Shown piece by piece: positions 1-17,089 of a stretch of DNA of 64,000 nt. The DNA comes from Corynebacterium alimapuense (GTDB lineage: Bacteria; Actinomycetota; Actinomycetes; Mycobacteriales; Mycobacteriaceae), in the NCBI RefSeq assembly GCF_003716585.1, contig NZ_PTJO01000004.1, forward strand, positions 186,001 through 250,000. The letters are read 5' to 3'. The notes under the pieces are model-generated. The model was not told where the DNA came from and searched no databases. It worked only from the letters and a program-made list of their open reading frames with translations. Position 1 is the stretch's first letter, and every line of letters begins with the position of its first letter. The position numbers were made by a program, and so were the translations under genes.

Positions 1-1632
1 TATCACGGCGGTCTCAACAGCTGCCCGATGCCCGGTTACTACCCGATCCCGACCGTGGACATCGACGCTCAGAATGCCTATCCCACCGCGATGGCGTTGG
101 TGCGCGACCTCGACTGGGAGGCCGGTGCCATCGAGGATGTTGTTCACGAAAGGGCTCTCACCCTGGACGAGGTGCCGTCGGCGACGACACCGTTCGTAGG
201 ATTCGTCTCCTTCGAGTTCCCGGACAATGTGCTGCATCCTTGCCTGCCCATCGTCGCTGACGGGACGCTCATCTACCCGCGGACCTCAGAGGGCGTCGCT
301 GGGACCTGGGTGTGCGGTCCTGAGCTGTGGCTCGCTCTCGTGGTGGGCGCGAAAGTCTACTGCCAGATCGGTTACCTCGGACGTGTCCTCAAGCTCGATG
401 GTGAGCCGAGCCTGTCGTTGCGTCATGGGGTGAAGCAGCTGATCGACGACCGCAACGCCGCTAAGGCGCTGTACGGCAAGGGGTCGCTGGAGGAGCAGAC
501 GCTCAAGACCTGCGTGAACTCGGTGTACGGCAAAACTGCTCAGGATGTCGCTGAGCAGCGGTCCTGGGACGCTCGGGCACAGGAAATGGACAACAACAGC
601 GGCTCGGCCGTGTCCAGCCCATATCACGCTGCCACCACGACCTCGTTGGTGCGTGCTCAGCTGCTGGCGACGATGAATCAACTCACCGATCACGGACGGA
701 AGGTCTACTCGGTGACGACGGATGGCTTCATCACCGACGCCACCGTGGATGAGGTCGCCGCCCTGGACCTCTACGGGCTGAAGGAGGTGCTCGGCGATGC
801 GCGCATTGCTCTGACCGGCGACCCGTCGATCTGGGAGGCCAAGCATGCGCAGCGCGACCTGGTGAACTTCATCACGCGCGGCAACGTCTCCCTCGACCTC
901 CGTGGGGTGTGTGCTCACAACGGGCTCAAGGCACCAAAGGGCGTCCTCCCTGACAGCCTTGAAGACCGCGAGTTGCTCCTGGTTTCGGTCGTGACCCGTG
1001 AGGGTCGCGTTCCGAACGGGTACACCGGGTTCCCGTCGTTCCAGGAGCTGTCTCGTACCGAAGACCGCAAGGACTTTCTTCCCTCCCGTGTCGAGCGCTC
1101 CGTGAGCATGGACTATGACCTCAAGCGCAAGCCCGTCATGTCCTCCATGACCCCAGAGATGGTGCCTCTGTCGGATGGCTCATCCAAGGAGATGGCGACA
1201 TTCCCCACCGAACCGTGGGAACGCATCGAGGACTGCGTGCGCGCCCGGCAGATCGCTCGCGAGATGGCACGGACAGGATGCCTTCGCACCGTCGCCGAAT
1301 GGCGTGACTGGGACGTGCGATACACCCACGGCAAGGGTCGCCGGATCATTACTCCGCAACGCACGGTGCTGATGTCCATTGTCATGGCACACCGGCAGGG
1401 CGTGATCACGATCCCGACATTGGCCGACCGCTCTCTGAGCATTACCGAGCGCCTTGTGTGGCTTGCTGAGTGGGGGATGGGCACCGTTTCTCGCGGCGAC
1501 TGGGACAACGCTCGACGCCCCGAGCGCGCCGCTCAGATGCTCCCCACCGACGCGCTCGCCCCCTACCTCGACCGGATGGTGGCAATGGCCTCCGGTGACC
1601 ACCCCTCGGACGCCGACCGGCTGCCGTACTGA
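1..1632 (+). CDS. Family-B DNA polymerase, C-terminal part (5' end outside window)
   Basis: The frame is open from base 1, so the gene starts upstream of the window; the first internal ATG is at 28. Just before it the frame reads Y-H-G-G, matching the YxGG element that links exonuclease and polymerase domains in family-B enzymes. Motif A follows (DIDAQNAYPTAM, Dx2xxYP type), then motif B (NSVYGK) and a motif C-like segment (SVTTDGFITD). In motif C the usual D-T-D becomes T-T-D, so one metal-binding aspartate appears replaced; this occurs in some mobile-element polymerases as far as I recall, but it may also mean reduced activity. The exonuclease domain, if present, is not in the window. The protein probably served replication of the element or of a plasmid or phage ancestor. 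Confidence 0.75.
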   Translation, partial: YHGGLNSCPMPGYYPIPTVDIDAQNAYPTAMALVRDLDWEAGAIEDVVHERALTLDEVPSATTPFVGFVSFEFPDNVLHPCLPIVADGTLIYPRTSEGVAGTWVCGPELWLALVVGAKVYCQIGYLGRVLKLDGEPSLSLRHGVKQLIDDRNAAKALYGKGSLEEQTLKTCVNSVYGKTAQDVAEQRSWDARAQEMDNNSGSAVSSPYHAATTTSLVRAQLLATMNQLTDHGRKVYSVTTDGFITDATVDEVAALDLYGLKEVLGDARIALTGDPSIWEAKHAQRDLVNFITRGNVSLDLRGVCAHNGLKAPKGVLPDSLEDRELLLVSVVTREGRVPNGYTGFPSFQELSRTEDRKDFLPSRVERSVSMDYDLKRKPVMSSMTPEMVPLSDGSSKEMATFPTEPWERIEDCVRARQIAREMARTGCLRTVAEWRDWDVRYTHGKGRRIITPQRTVLMSIVMAHRQGVITIPTLADRSLSITERLVWLAEWGMGTVSRGDWDNARRPERAAQMLPTDALAPYLDRMVAMASGDHPSDADRLPY

Positions 1633-1648
1633 CTGGAAGGAACTGACC

Positions 1649-2059
1649 ATGACGAACAACATCTCCACCAATCTCGATGAGCTGATCGAGCAGGAGCACC
1701 GCCGTGCCGCCGACCGCATCGCGAAGCTCAAGCGTGCTGCTGCTGCCGAGCAGCAGGGCGACCTCTACAACCGACTCGCCCGCGAAGCGGCTGATGCTCT
1801 CGCCGCGTATGGGCAGGGCGCGGCCCGCGACTTCTTCTTGGAAGGCGTGCTTGCACTGCCCGACGACGTCGCAGAAATGATTCGGATCTTCGTGCACGAC
1901 GAGGTTGTTCTCTCAGTCCCGCGCGACCACGCTGAGGACGTCAAACAGGCGGTCATCAGCGCCTTCGAGTCGGTGCAGCTGCCATGTGTAGAGAGTATAA
2001 GCGTCCCTGTCCTGGCCGACTCGGCGGGGCCAGAGGTCACCTGGGCAGGGTGTAAATGA
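1649..2059 (+). CDS. Stand-alone fragment resembling the C-terminus of a family-A DNA polymerase
   Basis: This 136-residue protein starts at an ATG 16 bases after the family-B polymerase gene, preceded by GGAAGGAA. Residues 1-45 are a charged helix. From about residue 50 it reads like the end of a Pol I-type palm domain: a segment resembling the helix after motif B (YGQGAARDFF, compare NYxIQGxAAD) and then a clear motif C (FVHDEVVLSVP), ending in W-A-G-C-K as many phage Pol A proteins do. The fingers O-helix and the rest of the enzyme are absent, so it cannot be an active polymerase by itself. It could be a remnant of a phage polymerase or a reused small protein. The next small ORF overlaps its stop codon by ATGA. 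Confidence 0.55.
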   Translation: MTNNISTNLDELIEQEHRRAADRIAKLKRAAAAEQQGDLYNRLAREAADALAAYGQGAARDFFLEGVLALPDDVAEMIRIFVHDEVVLSVPRDHAEDVKQAVISAFESVQLPCVESISVPVLADSAGPEVTWAGCK

Positions 2060-3051: not shown

Positions 3052-3438
3052 GTGAGGTACGAACGAATGCAATTAGAAGGTCCCGTCAAGAAAAGATTGA
3101 CACTGCGGCTGGACAGCGAGCAGTGGAACGTCGTAAGCGAAGTAGCAAAGCGCGTGAACCTAACGCCTGCGGAGGTCATGCGCGGAGCGATACATACGCT
3201 CTCGGACCGACTGCCGCGCGGTTGGTCGGAGCGGATAAATGACCCGCCAGAGTCTTTCCAGAACGACGTGAGACGGCTCTGGAAAGAGATCAACCAGATA
3301 GGCGTGAATATCAACCAGTTGACACGGCTAGCGCATCGCTCTAACGACGCGGAGTTGAAGGAGATTATGTCTCAGACAGAGGCCGCTCTACGGGGGTTGA
3401 GACGGGAGGTGACCGCAGTTGTCAATCACCACTGTTGA
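3052..3438 (+). CDS. mobC: MobC-family mobilization accessory protein
   Basis: 128 residues from a GTG preceded by AAGGA; an ATG at 3067 is an alternative start. The N-terminal half looks like a ribbon-helix-helix DNA-binding domain (VKKRLTLRLDSEQWNVVSEVAKR). The C-terminal half has the MobC signature IGVNINQLTRLAH, compare NNLNQIARxxN of the family. MobC proteins bind oriT and help the relaxase reach the nick site. The gene follows the hairpin cluster directly and overlaps the relaxase start by 20 bases, which fits a mobilization operon. Confidence 0.8.
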   Translation: MRYERMQLEGPVKKRLTLRLDSEQWNVVSEVAKRVNLTPAEVMRGAIHTLSDRLPRGWSERINDPPESFQNDVRRLWKEINQIGVNINQLTRLAHRSNDAELKEIMSQTEAALRGLRREVTAVVNHHC

Positions 3439-4921
3439 CCGGTCGAAGAGGATCTCATCGCCCGTCGTGTACGCCGTTTACGGCACCCGCGCTAACGCTA
3501 AAGCAGGCGTGGTTAGAGCGGCAGCGCTAACCGTTGTATGCGGCGGCGAAATGGAGAACCCGAACGACGGTCGATGGGCGGGAATCGAGTTTATCGAGGC
3601 CGGCCGGGAGGTCATGAACAAAAATAGCCGGCGCAGTAACCGCACTATCACTTTGGTCCAGTCATGGGCTAAAGACGAACTCAATAAAGATGACCCTGCG
3701 GATGTAGAAAAAGCCAATGTCATGGGTGCCGATTTAGCGCAACGGTTAGCGCCTGATACGCCGTATGTTGTAGCGACGCACACGGACAGTAAGTCAGGCT
3801 GCGTGCACAACCACATCGTCTTGCTTAATCATGATCTGCGTACTGGGAAAGCCGCGCCGAAGCGCGCTGGGAATTGGCACGCAGTCAAAGCTATCAACGA
3901 TGAAGTGATGCGCGACTGGGGCATGAGGACGCTGGAGCCGGAAGGCTTTGTAAAGCTACGGCGTGCTGAACGAATGGCTCAGAGAGACGGGAAGAGCATT
4001 GACTCAACCGGACTAGGCGTTAGGGAGTTGACCGGCGAGACTTGGGCAGATTATCTACGCAAGCGCGTGGATGAGTTGGTCAACGATAAGCGCGTACTCA
4101 AAGCCTCAGACGGGATGCAGAAGGCGCGTGAGGTAGCCGGCGAATACAACCTATCTCTGAGGTCAACGAACGGTGAACTCAGTATTGGATTGGTTGAAGA
4201 TGGGGAGGAAATTAATTACACAACACGCACGCCAAAAGATAACAGTCGCAAGCGCAAAGCAGTAGATGCCGGCTCCAAGTTTGGCCCCGGATACACCGCC
4301 AACGGGCTTAGCGAACGCATCGCGGAAGCGCAGGCGCAATTAGCAGCTGCTATTGCGCGACAACAACGAATTGACCGTATTAACAAGTTGAAATTAGAAG
4401 GAGAGAAAGAAGATGTCTCAGGAATTAACAGGTCAGCAAAAGGAAGCCATGGAGGACTACATCGACGAGAGTCTGGACCCGGTGATGGACGCCCTGGAGA
4501 AGATGCAGGACCGGTATACGAAGGACGCGACCAAGACCGTAGCGGCCCTCAAAGCAGTGGAAGAGCTGGAGAAGCGGATTCAGTCCATCGGCGCGTCGGG
4601 GCAGGAACTGCAGACGTTATCCGCGCAGCAGCGGCAGCTAGACAAGCAGCTGCAGAGGTTGGCTCAAACCACGGTGGGGACGAAGGAGTACGACGCAGCG
4701 CAGAAAGCGGTAGCAGAGACGATAAGCAGTCTAGTGCAGATGCTGTCGGACATTGGGCCAGCGATGCGGGGTATCCAGAAAACACTTCACGACCTGGCCG
4801 CGATGTACAAGGCGACTCTGGAAGTCGCGAAGCATCCCGTAAGGCTAAGCGACAAAAGCGCGCAGAGCGTCTCGCAAGGATTAACCAGGCAGCTCTCAAC
4901 GAGCCTGAGTTCGGAGGTTAA
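3419..4921 (+). CDS. MobA/VirD2-type relaxase
   Basis: 500 residues from a TTG inside the end of mobC. The relaxase should nick oriT, stay bound to the 5' end and pilot the strand into a recipient. The metal-binding motif is clear at about residues 121-135 (THTDSKSGCVHNHIVLL, H..HNH type), and a tyrosine pair (VVYAVYG) near residue 20 may hold the nicking tyrosine. Only about the first 330 residues look like an ordered protein. The last 170 are glycine, arginine and serine-rich and are read from DNA that encodes the next gene in another frame. The true start could be further inside, because the TTG has no strong ribosome binding site. Confidence 0.85.
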   Translation: MSITTVDRSKRISSPVVYAVYGTRANAKAGVVRAAALTVVCGGEMENPNDGRWAGIEFIEAGREVMNKNSRRSNRTITLVQSWAKDELNKDDPADVEKANVMGADLAQRLAPDTPYVVATHTDSKSGCVHNHIVLLNHDLRTGKAAPKRAGNWHAVKAINDEVMRDWGMRTLEPEGFVKLRRAERMAQRDGKSIDSTGLGVRELTGETWADYLRKRVDELVNDKRVLKASDGMQKAREVAGEYNLSLRSTNGELSIGLVEDGEEINYTTRTPKDNSRKRKAVDAGSKFGPGYTANGLSERIAEAQAQLAAAIARQQRIDRINKLKLEGEKEDVSGINRSAKGSHGGLHRRESGPGDGRPGEDAGPVYEGRDQDRSGPQSSGRAGEADSVHRRVGAGTADVIRAAAAARQAAAEVGSNHGGDEGVRRSAESGSRDDKQSSADAVGHWASDAGYPENTSRPGRDVQGDSGSREASRKAKRQKRAERLARINQAALNEPEFGG

Positions 4922-5978: not shown

Positions 5979-7061
5979 CTAGACCACCTCCTGCACCTCG
6001 GACAGGGGCAGCAACTGTTCGAGAACATAGAGGTCAGTAGCCTTTTTCTCTAGTAACGCCTTCATGGTGGACTCCATGTACTCCCAGTCGGGGTCGCCTG
6101 ATGCGTCTATAGGAAGGCTCACAAAGTCCTGTCTTAATCGACCTAACGTCGCTCCATTAGCCCAGTTATATTTGCCGAGCACGGCTTTGATGCAGGCGAC
6201 GACAAATAATGCGTTGTAGATGTTGAACTTCTCATGCGCGATGGTATGAACATTCTGACCTGTATAGAAAGGGACAGGTTGATAGCAGACTGTTTGAGTA
6301 TCCAGCCCGACAGTAATTACATTCCCCGATTCTTTCTGATACCTCGGGTCTTGATCATCAGTAACATACATTGAAACAGCGTTGTTTCCACCGGATCGAG
6401 TTACATAAGGTATGTCACCAGGAGTTTGATTCAACCTATTTTTATCGATACCGCTTAAAGTCGAGTGAATATCGAAGATGTCTTCAATGCGGAACTCACG
6501 CCAAGCGTCAACATCAACAGATACAGGCTTTGAATTTGCTAACTCATCGATGAGGCGTAGTTTGGACTCCTGACTACCGACAATCGAACGCATCGTTTGC
6601 TCCATAGTGTCCCAATCAGGCGACCCGTCGGTAAAGACTGGTAGGAACACGGTTTCTTTAGCAAAGGCTTCGCCAGTTCGTTTCCATGCGAAACTGTAGT
6701 TATAACGCTCAATGCTCTTATTAAGACAAGCCACGAGGAACAAGCCGTTCCACTGGTTCATCCGGTGGTGGTAGCCAAGTTGTAAATCGCTACTGCCTAC
6801 AAACGGTTCTGCTTGATAAGTGTTGCGTCCAACTCCGCCGTTACCGTTAACGATCATGGCGATACAGTTACCGTCACTGGTCAACGACCCGTCAATATCT
6901 TCAACATCGCGAACGTAACCGTTGTTAGCGAAGCTAGCAGCAATGTAAGGGATATCCCCGTCCATAAAAGACCCTGCACCGCTGCCTCTACCACGTTCAA
7001 TGCGCTCGAAGAGGTCTGCTACCAGGACTTCACCCCAGTCGGAGATGTCTACTGCCTTCAT
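5979..7061 (-). CDS. Specificity (S/B) subunit of a BcgI-like restriction-modification system
   Basis: 360 residues with two similar halves, each a target-recognition domain followed by a helical piece. The repeat shows in WGEVLVADLFERIERG against WREFRIEDIFDIHS, and in NGLFLVACLNKSIERYNY against NALFVVACIKAVLGKYNW. Such proteins read the two halves of a split recognition site. The start ATG overlaps the stop of the methylase gene (ATGA) and is preceded by GGAGG. The lengths of the pair (609 and 360) resemble BcgI A and B (637 and 341, from memory). A classical type I S subunit is the alternative name, but no separate HsdR is present. Confidence 0.78.
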   Translation of the reverse strand: MKAVDISDWGEVLVADLFERIERGRGSGAGSFMDGDIPYIAASFANNGYVRDVEDIDGSLTSDGNCIAMIVNGNGGVGRNTYQAEPFVGSSDLQLGYHHRMNQWNGLFLVACLNKSIERYNYSFAWKRTGEAFAKETVFLPVFTDGSPDWDTMEQTMRSIVGSQESKLRLIDELANSKPVSVDVDAWREFRIEDIFDIHSTLSGIDKNRLNQTPGDIPYVTRSGGNNAVSMYVTDDQDPRYQKESGNVITVGLDTQTVCYQPVPFYTGQNVHTIAHEKFNIYNALFVVACIKAVLGKYNWANGATLGRLRQDFVSLPIDASGDPDWEYMESTMKALLEKKATDLYVLEQLLPLSEVQEVV

Positions 7062-8887
7062 TTCTGAACCTCCAAACGAATAGTATCGCCTTCCTCGGAG
7101 ATTTCGGAGGTATAGGTGGCAAGGTTGCCCATCGATTCACGCACGGTTGCACCATCAACACCCCGTTGGAACATCAGGTAATCAAGTGCGGTACGAGCGA
7201 AATCTTCCTCGGTGATCTCAAACGGCTTCTCCGGTGCTTGCCAGCTCAGGCAGTCATTAGTGGAGTGCCACTGCCCAGTACCAAAGCGGCTTTCGTCGCG
7301 ACGCTCAATAGCATCGACCCAATAATCCTCAAGGTCAGGCCACTTTTTATAAACGTCGTGACGTCCCTTGTTCTTGACAGTGATGAGGCCGTCTTCTTCG
7401 ATGTTGACGGCGTAAAACTTCTTTCCGCCTTGGGGGACACCCGCTTCAAAAATGAAGATGGACGTTGTAATCCCAACCCCGAAGAATAGGTTTTCCGGCA
7501 GTTTCACGACCTTCAGCAGTCGGTGATTACGGAGAATCCTATTCTTTTGCCCTTTTGAGGTCTTCTCCAGCTTTTTATCCGGCAAGATGAACCCACAAAG
7601 TACACCGCGATCAACGTTATCTAGAACGTTCTCAACAATCTTCATGCAGCCAAACTTATTTTCATAAGGAGGGTTCATTAAGACCCTGGTGGCGCCAGTA
7701 GTACTAATCCAATCACCAGCACTGTCGGTACGGGCGTCCATATGCGCCAGATTAGTCTTGCCGTCTTTGTGGATAAGCATGTTCGCGCAGGCCAGCGCAA
7801 AGATCTCACGGTCAAACTCGATGCCGTAGAGCTGCTCTCGCTTAATCTTCTTCGCCTTGCGCGTCTTCACTCCACCGGCTTCGCGGATCATATTGCTCAT
7901 AGACTTGACGAGGAACGAACCCGAACCGGCGCAGGCATCGAGTACACGGTCATCCTTGTTTACTTCGAGCAAGCGGTACATAAAGCCCGTGATGTGGTCG
8001 GGAGTAAAGATTTGTCCAGATTCGGACTTCTTCTTATAGCGGTTGAACTCGTTGAAGAAGATGGCCATAACATCTTCACCGTCCCACGCGGAAGAGTTAA
8101 TGAGACCTGAAATCTCGGTAACCCAATCGATAAAGTCCCCAATTAGGTCTTTTAGTCGTTCTACGGCTCGCGGGTCTTCCTCGTCCGTGGACACGTTCAT
8201 CTTAATCTCCGAGTACACATCAGAGAGCAGCTGCAGCTTCGCGTTCTGTTCACGGTCAGACCGGATAGCCTTGTTCAAAGCGTTCAAGATACCCGTGTGG
8301 AAATCTGAGTAATCCATACCGCGCACAAGAACCGCGTCGTAACGACGTGCAACGAGAGCACAGGCTGTAAAGATCATGCGGTGGTAGAGATTTTTAATAC
8401 CGAAATCACCGTGGAGCGAGTTGTTAATTCGCATGGTCAGGGCATAGATACGCTCCTTGTCGATGGGCCGATCCATGAGTTTGTCAATGTAATAGTCCTT
8501 GGACTGTAATTCATCAGGCACGTCTAGCGGGCGCCCGTTGACGTATGCGCGGGTTCGCTCACCGTCGTAGACGATTCCCACAACAAGGTCGTAGCGGGTT
8601 CGCACGACGTCGCAGTACCTTTCGACCTGTTCCTTGAGCTCTGGCGCGTCGATAGACATCCTGTCAGGCGCTTTAGTCTCCAGCACAATAGCGACAAGAC
8701 CCCGGTCATGCGGCAAGTACCATCCGTCGGGTTTTAGCGACGTACCCTCGCCGTTAAAGCCTAGAGATTTGAGCGTCGTAATCTGCCCCACCCCGGAAAG
8801 GGCTTCTTTGGAGCCAACGGCCCCTAATTCGAGAACCTTTCCCGCGTAGTCGCGGACCTCATCTTCTGTGGTGGGGCGATGTGCCAT
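7058..8887 (-). CDS. BcgI-like fused nuclease/N6-adenine methyltransferase (A subunit)
   Basis: 609 residues. Residues 54-72 carry a PD-(D/E)xK-type nuclease signature (KPDGWYL, then ETK: Asp54, Glu70, Lys72). A gamma-class adenine methylase follows: GQIFTPDHI at 291-299, SAM motif LDACAGSGSF at 316-325 and catalytic NPPY at 405-408. Having cutting and methylating domains in one chain next to a two-TRD specificity protein is the layout of type IIB BcgI-like systems, which cut on both sides of the recognition site. It would protect the element and its host against incoming DNA and act as an addiction module. The first gene of a three-gene minus-strand operon, it ends 4 bases into the specificity gene. 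Confidence 0.82.
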   Translation of the reverse strand: MAHRPTTEDEVRDYAGKVLELGAVGSKEALSGVGQITTLKSLGFNGEGTSLKPDGWYLPHDRGLVAIVLETKAPDRMSIDAPELKEQVERYCDVVRTRYDLVVGIVYDGERTRAYVNGRPLDVPDELQSKDYYIDKLMDRPIDKERIYALTMRINNSLHGDFGIKNLYHRMIFTACALVARRYDAVLVRGMDYSDFHTGILNALNKAIRSDREQNAKLQLLSDVYSEIKMNVSTDEEDPRAVERLKDLIGDFIDWVTEISGLINSSAWDGEDVMAIFFNEFNRYKKKSESGQIFTPDHITGFMYRLLEVNKDDRVLDACAGSGSFLVKSMSNMIREAGGVKTRKAKKIKREQLYGIEFDREIFALACANMLIHKDGKTNLAHMDARTDSAGDWISTTGATRVLMNPPYENKFGCMKIVENVLDNVDRGVLCGFILPDKKLEKTSKGQKNRILRNHRLLKVVKLPENLFFGVGITTSIFIFEAGVPQGGKKFYAVNIEEDGLITVKNKGRHDVYKKWPDLEDYWVDAIERRDESRFGTGQWHSTNDCLSWQAPEKPFEITEEDFARTALDYLMFQRGVDGATVRESMGNLATYTSEISEEGDTIRLEVQK

Positions 8888-9141
8888 AGCATTCCTTTAT
8901 GTCCAAATTCGGTCGATATCGGACACAGCGCGACCAAGGGTCAGTGAGACTCTGACAGTTGCAGCCAGGGTGTCCGAGATCCCTGTCCGTTAAATCTAAC
9001 TTACCAAAATGGTGATATTAGGGATTGCGGACACGCCGGTCCGACGCCGAGGACGCGAGCAGGGGCTGGCCTCCCCCACTCGGGCTAATGTCACTAGGAT
9101 CGAGTCTCACACACTGAAAATTCACCCCAGAAAAGGCAGTC
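8888..9141. promoter_or_regulatory. Divergent control region with repeated TGTCC(G) motifs
   Basis: Between the divergent methylase and ParA-like genes the pentamer TGTCC or its complement GGACA occurs five times: 8901-8905, 8922-8926, 8971-8975, 8985-8989 and 9029-9033. Four of the five are extended to TGTCCG/CGGACA, and some form inverted pairs (CGGACAC with GTGTCCG). This looks like an operator or a partition-type binding array, but no binding protein has been assigned. The region must also hold the promoters of both genes. Confidence 0.45.
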
Positions 9142-9813
9142 ATGATTCTAACCGTAGCCAATCTCAAAGGTGGTTCCGGCAGAACTACTACAGCACTGAT
9201 GCTGGCGCAGGTGGCCAGTGAGCATGGAGCGAGTGTCCGGGTAGTAGATGCCGACCCTCGAGGTGGTTCCGCAACAACGGCGAAATACGCGACCAAGGAG
9301 GGTAGTCCTCTACCGTTCCCCGTTGACCGCGTTCCGATCTACGAGAAGCATGCTGAGACATACCCGCTAACCGATCGAATTCTGAACCCTTCTAGGCAAT
9401 ACGATTTGACGATTATTGACACAGCGTCAGTCAGCCCCGCAGCCATTCGAATTCTCTCTCCTGTCTCAGATTTCGTGATTATACCGGCATTCCCAAGCAG
9501 CGCGGACTTCCACCCAACGCTGGCCACCGTAGAATCAGTGGCAGGGTCCTGTGCAGTACTACTCAATCGCATAGGGCGCGCCGTTACCCTTGAGGCTGAG
9601 TTCCTCCTCCAACTCCAGAAAAAGAACGTCAATATTTTCGATACGGCAATCCCGGACATAAGGGCATTCCGGGACCCACTCGAAGGACGCATGAAAGACA
9701 ATCTTTACGATTATGAAATGGTCGCCGGAGAACTTCAGGAAATGCTCCGAAGTAAGATCAACGTAGCGTGGGGAACGACGTACAAACCTAAAAGCACCGC
9801 GGTCCCAAATTAA
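9142..9813 (+). CDS. ParA/MinD-like ATPase with altered P-loop
   Basis: 223 residues. The N-terminus reads MILTVANLKGGSGRTTTALMLA, a deviant Walker A motif of the ParA type in which the usual second lysine (KGGxGKT) is arginine. The adenine/Walker A' region (VDADPRGGSATT) and Walker B-like TIIDTAS are present. ParA ATPases bind nucleoid DNA and position plasmids or complexes. No ParB partner is seen next to it; a cognate centromere could be the repeated motifs upstream. The K-to-R change may weaken nucleotide hydrolysis. It is the only gene of the right part of the element that faces rightwards, convergent with the integrase. Confidence 0.78.
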   Translation: MILTVANLKGGSGRTTTALMLAQVASEHGASVRVVDADPRGGSATTAKYATKEGSPLPFPVDRVPIYEKHAETYPLTDRILNPSRQYDLTIIDTASVSPAAIRILSPVSDFVIIPAFPSSADFHPTLATVESVAGSCAVLLNRIGRAVTLEAEFLLQLQKKNVNIFDTAIPDIRAFRDPLEGRMKDNLYDYEMVAGELQEMLRSKINVAWGTTYKPKSTAVPN

Positions 9814-9892
9814 TGACGGTCGCTAATCAGTCGGACCCTTGAGAATTAGCCTGCCCCGAGGCAGTCAACAGTGATTTACAGATTGACCAGGA

Positions 9893-11356
9893 TTATTTCC
9901 AGGTTACCTGCACACGGCTCGGGTCGAACTGCTTGGCACCCGCCCTGCCGGGAAGGATATGTATTTCCATGAGTAGACGGGTGAGCCGCCGCTTATCCTG
10001 AACCGAGGCGCCCTCCCACCACTCGGGAAAATTGGAAGCATCTGCCAGCTCAGCAGCCAGCGGATCAGCATCATGTACGGCTGTCAGCTCCGCGAGCCGA
10101 ACCTCAATGGTAGCCACCTGTTTCGCGATCTTATTCTCGAGCCGACCAAAGGTATCAACGTCAATATTACCGGCGATCACAGACTCCTCGATGCTCTCGC
10201 GGCGCGCTAAGAGAGCATTCCGATCAGCAAGTAAGTGCTGAAGCTCGTCAGTGGCAGCATCGTCCTCAGCCGGGGCAAGAGCTTGCTGTATGACCCTCAG
10301 GGCATCAGGCTCGGCCATGCGGGCTAAGATGACACGCTCGATGAGCTCGTCAATTTCGGCGCCGATAGAGACGTGCTTACCGCCTGGGTTTGAGCGTTTG
10401 CACGTGTAGAAGCGCTGCATGGAACCATCTCTACGCCGGCGACTGCGTGAATACATCGGATCACCGCAGGTACAAGTCAGCACGGAAGCAAGGTAACGCG
10501 TCGGTGCATTGCCGGAGTGATGACTTCGGCGCGCCGGATCACGAAGCACGACATCGAGATTTTCGCCAGTTGCCTCATCGATAATTGCCGGCCACGTACC
10601 CGGCCCAAGGATCTGCCTGTCCTTAATAAGTCGGTAACCAGTCGCAGGGTCGGTGGGATTGAAGGTGCTTATGCCCCGTACGCGAGGGTTAAGCAAGATA
10701 TCTCGCAGCGTCTGCGGGGACATCTCTCGGCCTGAAGTGGACTGGATGTCGCGGGCATGGAAGATCTCACGGACAATTTCGCGCAGTGTCTTGCCAGCCA
10801 GAACCATCTGTGCAGCATCGCGGATAGCCTGGGCCTCGTCGTCGATGACTGTCATACCGTCCACCCCGTAACCAAGCATCCGACGTCCACCAGTCTTGGG
10901 ACGGCCGGTACGTGCTCGGTCCTCGTAGGCTGCACGAATACGGGCAGCACGGTCAATGCTCTCCTGCTCGGCGATCAGCCCCAGGATGACGATGGTAAGC
11001 CGCGAAGCAGGGTCGGAGGGATCGATGTCATATCCGCGGTTCGCGCGCACGCGGACGTTGTATCGCTCGCACAGCTCAAACAGCGCCAACGTGTCCTTGG
11101 TTCGGCGGGTGAGCCGATCCAATGCGTACACATAGACAACGTCCAGCTCGTCGGCCTCAATAGACTTGATGAGCTTGTCATACTCCGGCCGGAACTCACC
11201 GGAGAAAGCTGAAATGTTGTTGTCGACGTAGGTGGCGACTAGGCTCGCCTCGTCGGCCTCAGCCTGCTTAGTAGCCAAGTAAACTTGTCGCTTCACACCG
11301 GCTTCTTCTTTAAGGTCGAGCGAAATACGGGCGTAAATGGCAGCACGAAGGGTCAT
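9893..11356 (-). CDS. Large serine recombinase (integrase of the element)
   Basis: 487 residues. The resolvase-type catalytic domain has Ser12 (YARISLD), YALDRLTRR and the EQESIDRAARIRAAYE region. A recombinase domain follows (about 160-280), then a cysteine-containing zinc-ribbon-like segment (LTCTCGDPMY...FYTCKR, about 295-330), a coiled coil (about 370-430) and a C-terminal tail. This is the order of actinophage/ICE-type serine integrases, which recombine short attP and attB sites. The ATG lies about 30 bases from the break in eccC, as expected when attP lies at the int start. There is no clear ribosome binding site; TACGAT sits 7 bases before the ATG, so a leaderless transcript is possible. 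Confidence 0.92.
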   Translation of the reverse strand: MTLRAAIYARISLDLKEEAGVKRQVYLATKQAEADEASLVATYVDNNISAFSGEFRPEYDKLIKSIEADELDVVYVYALDRLTRRTKDTLALFELCERYNVRVRANRGYDIDPSDPASRLTIVILGLIAEQESIDRAARIRAAYEDRARTGRPKTGGRRMLGYGVDGMTVIDDEAQAIRDAAQMVLAGKTLREIVREIFHARDIQSTSGREMSPQTLRDILLNPRVRGISTFNPTDPATGYRLIKDRQILGPGTWPAIIDEATGENLDVVLRDPARRSHHSGNAPTRYLASVLTCTCGDPMYSRSRRRRDGSMQRFYTCKRSNPGGKHVSIGAEIDELIERVILARMAEPDALRVIQQALAPAEDDAATDELQHLLADRNALLARRESIEESVIAGNIDVDTFGRLENKIAKQVATIEVRLAELTAVHDADPLAAELADASNFPEWWEGASVQDKRRLTRLLMEIHILPGRAGAKQFDPSRVQVTWK

Positions 11357-11363
11357 AATCTAT

Positions 11364-11400
11364 ATCGTACTCACAACCCGTGTTCGGAATTTCCGGAGCC
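11364..11400. other. Probable hybrid attachment site (attL/attR) of the element
   Basis: Read on the minus strand, the sequence follows eccC through GGCTCCGG and then leaves it (AAATTCCGAAC...), with a stop codon 7 codons after the Gly-Ser-Gly codons. The odd palindrome CGGAA-A-TTCCG spans the switch. A serine integrase gene starts about 30 bases away. The exact crossover dinucleotide cannot be fixed without the other end of the element or an uninterrupted relative. Confidence 0.65.
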
Positions 11401-12696
11401 CGTGGCTCCGATACACAATCCGTGCGGCCCCATCCCGCCCTGGGCAGATTCCTTCAGATCAAGCCGTACAGGGGCGCCTTGCACAGTGGTACCAATAGGC
11501 ACCACCAAGCGTTGCCGAGACTGCAAACGTGACGGCCACATCGTCTCTGGTGTCAGTTGATCGATGCTAGCCAAACCAATCAACGAGGTGAGGTCCCTCC
11601 CACCGTTTGCCGAGGTTATCTCTTCAGGCCGGCGGTAGCAGGTCAGCGCACGGGCAAGGAGCACTGCTTCCTCCGTCCGAAGCACGTCAGGCGATCCCAG
11701 TATTTCGGGCCCTGCTGAAGTATGCGCGCGAAGTCGATCGTCAGCGGAAAGGACCAGCCCTTCTTGTTCTGCTCGAATGCCTAGAGCAGTGGCGGCACGT
11801 GATCCAACATCGATAATCGTGGTCCAACTCGGATCATCGAGGTAGGTCTCCGTGCCCGTAGTAGTCACGGAATCGACCACCAAGATGCGAAAGGCTGCCT
11901 GTTGGGAATCTCGCACATGCGGGAGCCACTTGCTCCATTCCCATCCTTGACCAACCACTTCAATACCCACGGTTTCTGGTCCGTGGGAGGTAACCAACTG
12001 CGCGATGATCGACCGTGCCAGATCTGCTGCTGGCCCGGAGATTCCCAGGAATCGGAATGCCTGAAGCTGCACTGCTACCGGCATCTCCGGACAGGTGCTC
12101 ACAGCGTGGACGGTACGGCGCAAACTCACCGCACACACTGGGTCTAGATCTTCGGCCGCACCTGAGTCAGGTACCTCCACCGGAGTACACAGCGCAGTAT
12201 CTCCGATGCCTATCTGTACTTCTAGGGCATCACTGTCCCCCGCTCCACGTTCCCAAAGCCGCCGGGTGCCTGCACGTGCCCATAGCTCTTTCGGATCTGG
12301 ATGACGATGAAACTCATGGGCGCGTTGTGACTTCGCATTCTCAAGTGCTTTTTCCCGCAATGCTCCAAGATGACGCAAGTAGATCCGCCGAGCCTCATCC
12401 ACATCCTGACCTGCTTTCGGCGAAAACATCATCAACAACGACATGGCCATCATTAGTGGGAAAACCAACATCATGGGATTGGCTCCGGCCCCACCCAGCA
12501 TCATCAATCCGACCATGGCCGCCATTGCCCCGATCATCATCACGGGCATGAGAATTCGAAGCAGTGGTGTTGGACCTGGTCGGTGTGCTGGCGGCACGGA
12601 TTCAGCAGTAAGTGAGCCTTGAGGCAGCGGTGGCGCAGGCTCACGTTCAGCTGCGGTGAGCGGCTCAATAGTGCGGTTGATATCGGTTTCGAGCAT
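11371..12696 (-). pseudogene. eccC: EccC (ESX ATPase), truncated at the first Walker A motif by the mobile element
   Basis: Only 441 residues remain of a protein that is normally about 1,200 or more. Two membrane segments are visible at about 44-90 (LLRILMPVMMIGAMAAM and MMLVFPLMMAMSLLMMF), then the domain before the first FtsK/SpoIIIE ATPase. The reading frame reaches GPHGLCIGATGSG and then continues N-S-E-H-G-L-stop, where intact EccC would read GKSE and go on for three ATPase domains. So the P-loop lysine codon is lost at the junction. The start has a good AGGGGGA site. The missing 3' part should lie beyond the left end of the element. Type VII secretion cannot work with this fragment unless the element excises. 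Confidence 0.88.
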
Positions 12697-12925
12697 GCGG
12701 CAATTCCCCCTGATCTGCCCTATCCGCGGTCCGCCCGGCCACCCCGACCGAGCATCCCCACTGTCAACCGCGGAAGATGATCAATCGACATCGTATGCCA
12801 GGTCTCGCAGGAGCGCCTGCCCAAAGATTCATTCTTGCGGTGGACAGCGACGCTTGGTTGGGCGATGATGATCCGCAGTAGGACTGCAGGGGTGCGTCCT
12901 GGATCTTTCTTGGGGGAGATTATTC
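12697..12925. promoter_or_regulatory. Divergent promoter region of eccC and eccD
   Basis: 229 bases between eccC on the minus strand and eccD on the plus strand contain no convincing gene and must carry both promoters. Clear ribosome binding sites flank it (AGGGGGA for eccC, TGGGGGAG for eccD). I see no certain -10/-35 pair or operator. Confidence 0.5.
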
Positions 12926-14275
12926 GTGAGCCTCGACCATGTACTTCGGTTGACCGTTCGATTCAACGTTGGCGCCTACCTGGGGGAAGCGGATCTAGCG
13001 CTGCCGAAGAGTTCTTCATTGGCGGAAATGATCCCGGAGATCGTCGAATTATGTGGGGCTCCAAGAATCTCTCGTCCTTGGCAAGCTACGACGGCAGCTG
13101 GTAGTCCGCTTGATCCTGCGGTGCCAGTTCATCAAACCCCATTGGACCACGGTTCAGTACTTGTTTTGACACCTCGGCATGAGGTCCCTGCCCCAGTCAT
13201 CAAAGATGCAGCGGAATCACTCGTCGCCGATGATGAAGCTCCCTTAGCCCATGGAATGTCAGTGGCCGCAGCGCTCGTGGGTTGTATCGGATTAATGTCA
13301 CTGGTCTCCATCTGGCAGCCAACTTCTCAGGCCTTGGCGGCCGGTTCAGTAGCTGCGTTAACAGTACTGGTCTGGCATCGAAAATCAGGACTACTAGCAA
13401 ACACTGCCATCGTGTTGGCCACAGCTGCGGCGGCTATAGCCGTTGTAGAGGCCAGCACAATCTCAGCTAGTGACACCAACCCCTGGTGGGAGCAGTCATT
13501 AACTCTGGGGTGGGCTGGTTTAGCTGCGTCCGGGATGATGGCAGCGGTGACCGCAGGAGTCGCTTTAGTGGGGCTCTTGGGAGCACGAAGTACCACCGCG
13601 ATGGGGGCCATCGTCGTGCTTAGTACGGTGGCATCGGCTGGTGCCTTCCTACCTGCGCATGCGGCTGAACTTGGGGTAGCTTCAGCCGCATTGATGGTGG
13701 CTGTTGGGATCCCCCTCATTGGAATGACACCTGCGCTAGCTGCTCGTTGCGCGGGTCTAAAAGTCCCTCGGCTGCCTACTGCTGGCCAGGATCTTAGTGT
13801 GGCTGACCACATCCAAGATGACGTTGGCGACCGTGCCCGGCGCGCACTGTTGGTCCATGAAGGTTTAGCTATTGGCACTGCCCTCGCGCTTATTCCTGCG
13901 ATGGTGATCATCGGAGTCGAAGGAAGCGGGTTCGCGCAAGCGCTGTGTTTATCGGTAGCCGGGGCGGTGTCACTTCACGCAGCACGGCACCGGCGCTTGG
14001 TTATTGCGTGGTCGTTGCTGTCAGTGGGGCTGGCAGCCAGCGTTGGAGCGGTCTTGGCTGCAGTGCTTAGTCCAAGTCATCCCAGCCAGGTGCTGCTAGC
14101 CGTGATGGTGATGGCAGCCGCGGTGAGCGCTCCGTTGTGGACTCCACGGGTTCCTGAACTAGAGCCGACCACAATCGTGTGGTGGGAGCGCGCAGAATCT
14201 TTAGCGATTGCGGCAGCACTTCCGCTGGCAGCTCACTTGGCCGGAGCGTTCCTATTGATCAGGAGCCTGGGATGA
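12926..14275 (+). CDS. eccD: EccD, type VII secretion membrane channel component
   Basis: 449 residues from a GTG preceded by TGGGGGAG. Residues 1-90 form the ubiquitin-like cytosolic domain typical of EccD (VLRLTVRFNVGAYLGEADLALP). From about 115 onwards there are roughly eleven hydrophobic segments, matching the EccD membrane core. EccD forms the channel of the ESX machine together with EccB and EccC. It overlaps mycP by ATGA. The gene itself is intact although its partner eccC is broken. Confidence 0.88.
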   Translation: MSLDHVLRLTVRFNVGAYLGEADLALPKSSSLAEMIPEIVELCGAPRISRPWQATTAAGSPLDPAVPVHQTPLDHGSVLVLTPRHEVPAPVIKDAAESLVADDEAPLAHGMSVAAALVGCIGLMSLVSIWQPTSQALAAGSVAALTVLVWHRKSGLLANTAIVLATAAAAIAVVEASTISASDTNPWWEQSLTLGWAGLAASGMMAAVTAGVALVGLLGARSTTAMGAIVVLSTVASAGAFLPAHAAELGVASAALMVAVGIPLIGMTPALAARCAGLKVPRLPTAGQDLSVADHIQDDVGDRARRALLVHEGLAIGTALALIPAMVIIGVEGSGFAQALCLSVAGAVSLHAARHRRLVIAWSLLSVGLAASVGAVLAAVLSPSHPSQVLLAVMVMAAAVSAPLWTPRVPELEPTTIVWWERAESLAIAAALPLAAHLAGAFLLIRSLG

Positions 14276-15414
14276 AATCTGCCATCGCAATGGCACTAAC
14301 AGTGCTCTTGGTTGTTCTAGCTCCGCCCGCGCCCGCTTTCGCACAGAGTCCTTCGATCCCCTGTGCTGTGCCTATCCCCGCCCTCGCGCCTGCCTCCGAT
14401 TCCGAATTGATGATCACCCACCGGATTGCCCGTGGCGAAGGGATCCGTGTCGCAATCATCGACACTGGGGTGGCAGCGCACCCTAACTTAGGACACGTGG
14501 AAGCGGTTGCGGATCTGGTATCCCCAGAGAATCCGAACCCGCTACAAGACTGTGATGGACACGGGACGATTGTCGCGGGAGTCGTCACTGATATCGCTCC
14601 TGGGGTGCACATCCTCAGTATCCGCCAATCCAGTGCACACTTTCGACGCGCTGATGGCGATGCCACCGGCACTCTGAGCGGGCTTGCCCAGGCGCTTCAT
14701 GCTGCACTCGATGCTGATGCTCACGTCATCAACATTTCTGTCGTTTCCTGTGTCGCTCAAGAACAAGCAAGTGCCTTGGACACTGGGATACTAGAGGATG
14801 CACTCGCCCGCGCTGAAGCACTAGGGGTCGTGGTGGTCTCTGCTGCTGGCAATCTCAGCGCTACCTGCCAAGAGACCATGATGGTTTATCCAGCACAATC
14901 ACCCACCGTCCTCCCGGTGGCAGCTCAGCATGCGAATGATCCACATGTACTAGCCGATTACTCGATGGCCTTGCCTGGGCAGGTAGTCGCGCCGGGCAGA
15001 TATTCAGCTGGGCTCTCGCCCACCGGAGAGGGTTGGGCCGAAGCGATGACTAATCCGCAGGGACAGGTCACTAGTTTTGAAGGCACGAGCTTCTCAGCTC
15101 CGCTGGTTAGCGGGGTGGCAGCGTTATTGCGTGAACGTTATCCCGGAGACTCTGCGGCTCAACTACGCGAAAGAATTCGGCAGTCTGCGGAGCCTGGTCA
15201 TGGAGCTGTTGAGCCGCATACTGCGCTGACTCATCTACCCGGCCAGTTTGCAACCGCTCCGCATGCCATCGATGCGCAATTGCCTACTCCTGCTGAGCCT
15301 CATGCCCGGCGACAGGCGACCCGATTATTAGGAGTCGTGGCTGCGATATCACTGCTTGGACTAGTGTTGCTCAGCTTCAGCGTTCCAGGCCGATCCAAGT
15401 GGCAAAGGGTGTGA
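14272..15414 (+). CDS. mycP: Mycosin (MycP), subtilisin-like serine protease of the ESX locus
   Basis: 380 residues; the start was chosen at the ATG overlapping the eccD stop because it gives a signal peptide (MKSAIAMALTVLLVVLAPPAPAFA). The subtilase triad is visible: Asp64 (AIIDTGV), His97 (DGHGT) and Ser273 (GTSFSAP), with oxyanion Asn194 (SAAGN). A C-terminal membrane segment (about 355-373) anchors it facing outward. Mycosins stabilise the ESX complex and process substrates. Its 3' end overlaps the convergent membrane protein gene by 38 bases. Confidence 0.92.
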   Translation: MKSAIAMALTVLLVVLAPPAPAFAQSPSIPCAVPIPALAPASDSELMITHRIARGEGIRVAIIDTGVAAHPNLGHVEAVADLVSPENPNPLQDCDGHGTIVAGVVTDIAPGVHILSIRQSSAHFRRADGDATGTLSGLAQALHAALDADAHVINISVVSCVAQEQASALDTGILEDALARAEALGVVVVSAAGNLSATCQETMMVYPAQSPTVLPVAAQHANDPHVLADYSMALPGQVVAPGRYSAGLSPTGEGWAEAMTNPQGQVTSFEGTSFSAPLVSGVAALLRERYPGDSAAQLRERIRQSAEPGHGAVEPHTALTHLPGQFATAPHAIDAQLPTPAEPHARRQATRLLGVVAAISLLGLVLLSFSVPGRSKWQRV

Positions 15415-15853: not shown

Positions 15854-17089
15854 TTAGTATCCAGCAGTCAATGCGGTACCCCGATCTAGGGGCAGGCCTT
15901 CTGGGAGCAACCGGAGTATTGCCCAAGGAGCGGCTACGGGGTCAGGGACGCCGAGTGCGCTCAGTGATTCAGAATCCGGAACTGGGTGCCGTAAGCCGGT
16001 GGTATCAACGATATGAAATCCGAAACCAGTGTCTACCGCTGTGGCACCTTCAGGTAGTCCGATGAATTCATCTGCCACCGATTCACCGGGCAACTCCACT
16101 GGAGCGAGTCCTTCCGTTGCTGGCATTAGGGTGCTGACTTGCCCAGATCCTTCAGCACATATGGAGATCTCTGCTGGATCCACCCACATCGGGGCAAATG
16201 CCGGCAGGTCATGTTCAAAGAAGCTATCAGCATGTTCAGCAGGAACGCTCCGTGAGACGGTGCTCACCGGTACCCCGGAATCCGCCAGAATCATTGCCTG
16301 CGTCTGGGTCAGTGGTGCTATGCCTTCAGGCCCCCTTGCCCAAGACTGTGTGCCGGTATCGAAGATTTCCTCTGGCATCACTGAAGGAAGACGCAAGGGC
16401 GGCAGTTCTTCGACAGCACCGAGCACCTCCACCGGAGGCTCCCAGCTCGGGGTACCGGCGGTAATAGCTAATGCCCGACGAATGACCCGGCCTTGAGCAG
16501 TATCCGCTGGCGGGAGCTGAGAGCGCCCATCATTGGTCAATAGCCACTGGCTGTCAGCACCGTTGGCGATCACGCCGCGATGGCCTCCCAACGGAGCTGT
16601 CTGTTCGCCAGAAAGAACCGTCACTTTCTCTTGGTGGTAACAAGCCGCCCAGGGTTGTTCATCTGAAGATTGTGCCAATACCAACGGTGCCGGGTGAATC
16701 CCCAACGGTGCGCCACGGTCCAATCCCACCAGCAAATGATCCGCGATCCTGGCTGGTTCTTCAGCTTCACCGGTGATCAGACGCGCGGAGGCCAAGTTCC
16801 CAACAGGGTGGACTACCTCTCCGACTTTGACGAACAAGGCGCCATCAGCAGTCTGCAGAATGGAGCTATCTCCAGGATCAGCCGCGGGTTTCAACCACGC
16901 CAATAGACCTGATCCCAGTCCGAGTAATGCCACGGCAACCAGCCCGAACACCATCGCTCGTCGACGTACGCTCAGTGGGTCATAAATCATCCGAATATCG
17001 CCGAATACGAGACCATGCTCAACGCGACGTTGTAAAAATCGGTGTCCAGATACCTGGGCACCGGTGGTCGGCAAAAACTGCGAACTCAC
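15854..17089 (-). CDS. eccB: EccB, type VII secretion core protein
   Basis: 411 residues from a GTG with GGGGGAAGA upstream. The N-terminal part (SSQFLPTTGAQVSGHRFLQRRVEHGLVFGDIRM) is the conserved EccB cytosolic stretch; a single membrane segment at about 46-66 is followed by a large extracytoplasmic domain with two cysteines (ACYH, ICAEG) that may form a disulfide. It belongs to the inner-membrane ESX complex with EccC and EccD. This gene set beside truA matches the ESX-4-like locus of corynebacteria and mycobacteria. Confidence 0.88.
   Translation of the reverse strand: MSSQFLPTTGAQVSGHRFLQRRVEHGLVFGDIRMIYDPLSVRRRAMVFGLVAVALLGLGSGLLAWLKPAADPGDSSILQTADGALFVKVGEVVHPVGNLASARLITGEAEEPARIADHLLVGLDRGAPLGIHPAPLVLAQSSDEQPWAACYHQEKVTVLSGEQTAPLGGHRGVIANGADSQWLLTNDGRSQLPPADTAQGRVIRRALAITAGTPSWEPPVEVLGAVEELPPLRLPSVMPEEIFDTGTQSWARGPEGIAPLTQTQAMILADSGVPVSTVSRSVPAEHADSFFEHDLPAFAPMWVDPAEISICAEGSGQVSTLMPATEGLAPVELPGESVADEFIGLPEGATAVDTGFGFHIVDTTGLRHPVPDSESLSALGVPDPVAAPWAILRLLPEGLPLDRGTALTAGY

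Follow-up and report, generated by a model that had tools for sequence, protein, structure and literature searches.

The gene eccC of Corynebacterium alimapuense, which encodes the motor ATPase of the ESX-4 type VII secretion system, is split inside the lysine codon of its Walker A motif by a mobile island with its own large serine integrase. The island is real, recurs in other species at this one catalytic codon and moves horizontally. In our assessment it is very probable that an integrative mobilizable element entered an attB in the Walker A sequence of eccC, at the AA of the lysine codon, and that its family moves between Corynebacterium species. The genome analysed (G000) is a 2.29-Mb draft of 12 contigs, and the window, the whole stretch of 64,000 nucleotides that was analysed, corresponds to C4:186001-250000 of contig C4. 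Coordinates without a contig name refer to the window, and G and L numbers denote genomes and loci.

Organization of the eccC locus

The initial annotation had described a truncated eccC next to a serine integrase, with the insertion lying exactly in the Walker A codons. The truncation was confirmed, and at both junctions the break falls inside the lysine codon, at its AA. The truncated ORF (11371-12696, minus strand, 441 aa) reads normally to ...HGLCIGATGSG and then changes to NSEHGL-stop; its nearest matches in the genus are 74-80% identical, aligned to residue 438. The absent 3' half, predicted to lie left of the window, was located there by an FtsK-family search of the whole genome (C4:177385-179709, minus strand; first residues KSELLRTLVVSLAATHSPDELN). 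It begins KSELLRTLV..., 17.68 kb from the break, and carries the expected second att junction. The remaining ESX-4 genes are listed in the table, eccD, mycP and eccB being open frames, as is the WXG100-type ORF (named from its sequence) behind the eccC 3' half. A short eccC shared with relatives that lack the element was ruled out, since in the near relatives G012 and G217 the eccC frame spans 1204 and 1223 aa, respectively.

As the genome is a 12-contig draft, a chimeric contig, in which eccC had been falsely joined to an unrelated element, was considered. It is ruled out by recurrence: other genomes have the same structure with different elements, and four of these genomes consist of a single contig (G003, G017, G025, G106); we give an assembly artefact virtually no credence.

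Table. Features of the eccC island and the adjacent ESX-4 locus of C. alimapuense
Feature	Position	Strand	Evidence or remark
OLD-like nuclease gene unit	C4:179708-182024		between second internal half-site and eccC 3' half
ApeA-like unit	C4:182024-183738 (outside window)		between first and second internal half-sites, AA-bounded
Polymerase-type gene, 3' part	1..2059	+	gene start left of window, C4:184864
MobC-like mobilisation protein	3052..3438	+	PF05713 2.3e-06
MobA/VirD2-like relaxase	3419..4921	+	PF03432 1.7e-13
Small serine resolvase/invertase, 187 aa	5415..5978	-	PF00239 2.5e-43
HsdS-type specificity subunit	5979..7061	-	
N6 DNA methyltransferase (type I/IIG-like restriction-modification)	7058..8887	-	
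ParA-like partition ATPase	9142..9813	+	PF13614, PF01656 over cut-off; NCBIfam matches below cut-off
Large serine integrase, 487 aa, same direction as eccC	9893..11356	-	Resolvase 1.5e-25, Recombinase 4.9e-11 (Pfam)
attL P' arm	11362..11391	-	23.5 bits
attL core dinucleotide AA, bases 1-2 of Walker A lysine codon	11390..11391	-	junction comparison
eccC 5' half (ESX-4 ATPase), host part to GATGSG	11392..12696	-	435 host-derived codons
eccD, divergent from eccC	12926..14275	+	PF19053
mycP-type subtilase, ESX-4 locus	14179..15414	+	PF00082
eccB	15854..17089	-	PF05108 7.7e-61

Attachment sites

The minus-strand sequence is GGC TCC GGA AA/T TCC GAA CAC GGG TTG TGA at the 5' junction and ACCCACAACCCGTGTTCGGGC AA/A TCC GAA CTA at the 3' junction, the slash marking the break. 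When the two junctions are overlaid in frame, AA is the sole adjacent base pair common to both in 13 of the 13 carriers with two junctions, accompanied by one further single base. The whole insert, core to core, spans C4:179708-197391 (17.68 kb; 17684 bp), of which the island proper takes up 13.65 kb (C4:183738-197391). No direct repeat of 8 bp was found between the two insert ends, which carry inverted arms instead: the attL P' arm is an inverted copy, over 16 of 16 bp (CACAACCCGTGTTCGG), of the half-site beside the eccC 3' half (C4:179708-179737) and, over 15 of 16 bp, of the island's own end, the first internal half-site (C4:183738-183767). Read from the junctions rather than from a circle, attP is thus dyad-symmetric, with AA at its centre and 16-bp inverted arms. 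Recombination of this attP with the eccC P-loop attB at AA, presumably by the integrase, would have separated the lysine from GATGSG and so split the ESX-4 motor ATPase within its nucleotide-binding motif.

A position weight matrix was built from 14 end half-sites, those of 13 carriers and of G034, whose leave-one-out scores are 27-47 bits. With the end half-site of G000 left out of the matrix, that site scores 36.4 bits, compared with at most 15.7 bits when 447 kb (one strand) were shuffled 20 times by single bases. The half-site pattern has 37 matches in 33 of 242 genomes (13 at eccC, 3 within the islands of G000 and G003, and 21 elsewhere) and a reversed control pattern none; together these controls argue that the G000 half-site is not due to chance.

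Gene content of the island

The integrase contains the domains PF00239 and PF07508 over cut-off together with a YARIS motif, which we take to be the catalytic Y.R.S motif, and so classifies as a large serine integrase. Membership of the Ccr recombinases of SCC elements or of XisF, the fdxN element recombinase, was rejected, the scores falling far below the NCBIfam cut-offs (CcrC 61.8 of 900 bits, CcrA 55.1 of 700, CcrB 49.1 of 900; XisF 93.3 of 375). Its gene starts 34 nt from the AA core and 14 nt after the stop of truncated eccC. No promoter-like or terminator-like site was detected on the minus strand between 9800 and 13000, in a weak scan that found none upstream of eccC either. Given this spacing on the same strand, eccC transcription may drive the integrase, which is probably under the eccC promoter.

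With its own integrase and a relaxase, the island classifies as an integrative mobilizable element, and its transfer would proceed in trans, with a helper element, by mobilisation through the relaxase, as the homology of that protein suggests. Conjugative pilus or type IV secretion genes had no match in the subset of G000 ORFs scanned. A 114-aa island protein matches HTH_17 weakly (22.5 bits against a cut-off of 27), its G003 homologue scores 38.9 bits, over cut-off, and homologues lie near the far end in 13 of the 14 carriers; this small HTH_17-type protein is the best candidate for a directionality factor.

The polymerase-type gene consists of two overlapping frames in G000 (ending at 1632, and 1454-2059). 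The 201-aa frame clusters with a 1388-aa protein of G003 (DNA_pol_A, PF00476, 6e-40), and for the 922-aa frame of G017 Pfam gave no match. The arrangement is 922 plus 201 aa in G000 and G017, and one frame of about 1400 aa in G003, G031 and G106. The middle cargo is swapped among relatives, which carry type III (G003) or type I (G124) restriction-modification genes, HsdR (G119), a heavy-metal ATPase (G017), merA (G122), a Tet(M/W)-type gene (G136) and, below cut-off, a nikA-like gene (G074). The element most likely owes its persistence to this cargo of restriction-modification and other genes, and not to a role as a host switch.

Distribution within the genus

The genus set comprised 242 genomes, one per species. 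An eccC 5' match was obtained in 236 of them and an integrase match at E <= 0.001 in 108, 14 of which encode a full-length integrase at 61-100% identity; the next listed integrases are at most 41% identical, save for fragments and short partial matches. In all 14 carriers the 5' half of eccC breaks off at the lysine codon, and in 13 the 3' half starts at that codon, preceded by a half-site. The exception, G125, has lost that 3' part, its element being cut at an IS-type transposase gene. Every full-length copy of this family found in the genus set uses the lysine codon of eccC. The two junctions lie on separate contigs in G136, G156 and G086. The islands of G125 (L097) and G136 (L098/L099) are near-identical where aligned, G125 being without the middle and far end; the points between which this part was lost lie at the IS-type transposase gene.

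Integrase fragments occur in G011 (a C-terminal piece of 164 residues, 57%) and in G105 and G132 (46-47 residues, 61-62%). They sit away from eccC, which is unsplit at the P-loop in these genomes, so the eccC site may not be exclusive. G034 and G183 have a half-site at the eccC 3' half without an integrase of this family, and G183 has no eccC 5' match at all. A second eccC check covered 80 genomes drawn from those unlisted or without a match in the first search, with G168, G204 and G229 set aside. Of these, 78 matched (G064 and G067 had no eccC match), and in 77 the match spans the P-loop, G183 being the exception. Searches with the integrase returned one relative (L042) from the genome contig collection; in the plasmid and phage collections all matches were below 60% identity, and below 33% among the matches listed.

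The integrases of G000, G003 and G017 are 97-98% identical, whereas the eccC 3' halves of these genomes share 46-67% identity over about 460 codons (62-82% over the first 200), which shows that the element moves horizontally and points to three separate insertions. Three more separate insertions are likely in G031, G106 and G074: their integrases are 93-95% identical and their eccC sequences 69-72% (84-87% over the first 200 codons), and each of these eccC sequences is at least as similar to intact eccC genes of other species (71-76%). In G122 a broken frame makes the eccC identity of 48-49% too low (the first 200 codons give 80-81%), and this genome was left out of the evidence for spread.

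Serine integrases in other genera and at other targets

At E <= 1e-40 the integrase search matched 37 of 401 genomes of the family. Twenty-six of these belong to other genera, with identities of 30-35%, and no out-of-genus match reached 61%. Upstream context was read for 26 of the 27 matches outside the genus (all but G315). Two of these integrases lie in eccC, reading ...HGLCIGATGSGK/P in G279 and ...HGLCVGATGSGN/P in G558, and the corresponding 3' halves begin GKSEFLRTL 17.5 kb and 9.5 kb further on. Identity between the two integrases is 51%, and they share 28-37% with those of G000, G119 and G147, the last being a different Corynebacterium integrase (34-36%) situated at the other end of its insert with the break at the same AA. 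These low identities imply that at least three integrase lineages use the lysine codon. That the P-loop coding sequence acts as attB had been proposed from the C. alimapuense window; 14 genomes together with G147, G279 and G558, all interrupted at the same codon, bear this out, and the use of one codon by distant integrases in other species indicates a reusable docking site and not an accident.

Fifteen other Corynebacterium integrase loci were examined (L070-L085 without L076). In G065 (L072, nt 1420) and G163 (L073, nt 1420) an integrase (37-38%) is fused in frame at the P-loop lysine codon of another gene, presumably yifB/comM, as named from its sequence. Other serine integrases lie near eccC codon 80 in G068 (L078) and G104 (L079), and one in a WXG100 gene in G043 (L077), so that the ESX-4 locus is hit at several points.

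Such targets bear on an alternative account, namely ordinary insertion followed by decay, in which the disruption is tolerated and recurrence merely reflects that conserved P-loop codons suit serine integrases. The related integrases in the YifB/ComM P-loop lysine codon and the insertions elsewhere in the ESX-4 locus are in keeping with it, as are the frameshifted or stop-bearing eccC genes found without insertion in G212, G073 and G148. Against this, the eccC 5' match in 236 of the 242 genomes indicates that the gene is not readily lost altogether. The account, to which we assign a little less than an even chance, is compatible with entry of a horizontally moving element at the lysine codon and denies just a selection for ESX-4 loss.

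State of eccC and prospects of excision

Both eccC halves are free of in-frame stops in ten of the 14 carriers (G003, G017, G025, G031, G074, G086, G106, G124, G136, G156); a TAA in G025 lies upstream of the lysine codon, within the element, and was not counted as damage to eccC. The gene is damaged in the remaining four: G122 has many stops, G119 a stop in the 5' half, G125 lacks much of the 3' half, and the 3' half of G000 has an in-frame TGA as its codon 94, 93 codons past the junction. The G000 stop is known from a single assembly and may be a sequencing error; unless it is one, excision could not restore ESX-4 in this genome.

The initial annotation had suggested that excision could restore the gene, after the manner of regulated gene-splitting elements. 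For C. alimapuense a restoring excision found no support, both because of the TGA and because two further gene units occupy the site, and the gene halves are not both intact, as a regulated splitting element would have them; the notion of a switch is weak here, and the ten carriers with two open halves leave it standing elsewhere. Regulated excision, by which the element would leave on a cue such as iron limitation, oxidative stress or cell contact and restore eccC, can also draw on the candidate directionality factor, encoded close to the far end of the island in 13 of 14 carriers, and on the integrase gene 14 nt behind eccC. The single type VII system of C. glutamicum, which is homologous to ESX-4, eccC included, is Fur-repressed, with a Fur site upstream of eccB (PMC12607788). 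Furthermore, the eccC 3' halves of G031 and G156, both split today, are 99% identical and differ by 14 synonymous and 3 nonsynonymous changes (dS 0.039, dN 0.003; the ratio rests on the 3' halves, the 5'-half value having been dropped as not in register). These two genomes have different attL sequences and integrase ends of 90% identity next to cargo of 98.5% identity, which indicates that the ends were exchanged or the elements inserted separately, and recent separate insertions would explain the low dN/dS equally well. The stop in G000, the damage in G122, G119 and G125 and the variation of cargo among carriers all count against regulated excision. On evidence drawn from assemblies, one genome per species, we consider it unlikely.

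While the element is inserted, ESX-4 would be off, as suggested by the split P-loop and by the delta-eccC mutant of C. glutamicum, which is H2O2-sensitive (PMC12607788). Mycobacterial ESX-4 is reported to contribute to DNA uptake by recipients (PMC9514802). Carriers should accordingly be expected to lose functions such as peroxide resistance and DNA uptake. In G000 the loss of ESX-4 is most likely permanent, because two single-gene units lie at the site and the 3' half contains a stop.

Single-gene units next to the island

Two single-gene units, each ending in the half-site of the island, lie between the island and the eccC 3' half of G000. The two internal half-sites score 35.8 and 38.9 bits, the first being identical to the end site of G017, which was included in the matrix. 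The G017 island aligns to positions 1-2388 and 6069-13654 of the 17684-bp G000 insert, so its end corresponds to the first internal half-site.

The ApeA-like gene weakly matches the ApeA N-terminal domain (PF18862, 25.7 bits against a cut-off of 25.5), and PADLOC did not hit it; at E <= 1e-20 it is present in 4 of 242 genomes. The OLD-like nuclease gene (PF13175, PF20469; PADLOC Old, 1.6e-50) occurs only in G000 among the 242 genus genomes. In G114 (L143/L177) DNA 98% identical to the ApeA-like unit (1719 bp) lies elsewhere, beside a type ISP restriction gene, ending at AA on one side and 3 bp past AA on the other. G114 is absent from the integrase matches, and its eccC frame, 1299 aa long, is uninterrupted; the occurrence of the unit alone, with matching ends, in a genome free of the integrase suggests that integrase-less cassettes exist. 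No half-site was found near the ApeA-like gene in G084 (80%) and G210 (45%).

One of the 21 half-site matches outside eccC islands is the G114 unit. Thirteen are one fixed sequence, TACCCCAAACCCATGTTCAATTAA, two mismatches from the pattern (G002 at L147, G079 at L155, G082, G099, G116, G152, G158, G171, G186, G187, G223, G235, G236), with no cassette apparent in the two loci read (G002, G079). In G126 (L165), G151 (L167) and G188 (L175) a homologous gene of about 310 aa, of no known family and broken into two frames in G151, precedes the half-site; homology between G151 and G188 ends within the half-site, and that between G126 and G188 stops about 380 bp before it. There was no clear cassette in G044, G080 and the other G171 site (G230 was set aside).

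We tentatively suggest that the eccC P-loop lysine codon is a standing dock across the Mycobacteriaceae, at which the Corynebacterium integrase may also capture integrase-less, single-gene defence cassettes in an integron-like manner, each a gene with an attP half-site whose circle would join the resident end site at AA; we regard this as possible but rather doubtful. The row unit-P/ApeA-P/OLD-P/eccC is the outcome expected from circles with one P site inserting at the end site. Counting against cassette insertion, serine integrases are reported not to recombine pairings other than attP x attB without a further factor (PMC3783163). Alternatively, the units could stem from half-site recombination, or from larger elements that lost their middle.

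Comparison with known elements

Integrative mobilizable elements combine an integrase, a MobA/MobC-type relaxase and variable cargo. The eccC island shares all of these, with no conjugation channel among the proteins scanned, and differs in its attB, which lies at the P-loop lysine codon in the gene for a type VII secretion ATPase. SCC elements of staphylococci use serine recombinases (CcrA/B/C), dock at rlmH and form tandem units ending in att half-sites. The eccC island resembles them in its serine recombinase, its one fixed chromosomal gene as dock and its tandem half-site-ended units, and differs in its target, in the presence of a relaxase and in an integrase far below the Ccr cut-offs. 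Integron gene cassettes are single genes with one recombination site, arranged in a row, their recombinase being encoded elsewhere; the G000 units likewise form a row of single genes with one site each, but the recombinase is a large serine integrase and the half-site an attP arm. Tet-carrying gut elements are an example of integrative mobilizable elements (PMC12904643).

Elements that split host genes include the comK prophage of Listeria (PMC8987985), SP-beta in spsM (PMC4191935) and the skin elements in sigK (PMC5025042). As in those cases, a mobile element splits a host gene whose frame precise excision would restore; the G000 island differs in the stop in eccC, its mobilisation genes and its spread over several species. 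Literature searches over titles and the beginnings of abstracts found, among the matches listed, no paper describing an insertion at the P-loop of eccC, and a search combining eccC, serine integrase and Corynebacterium found no paper.

Conclusions

Different integrases have repeatedly targeted the same catalytic codon in a secretion ATPase gene, which makes the loss of ESX-4 comparable across species. If half-site cassettes move in trans, they would constitute a new route for the spread of single defence genes, and the integrase together with its eccC target is a possible site-specific tool for Corynebacterium.
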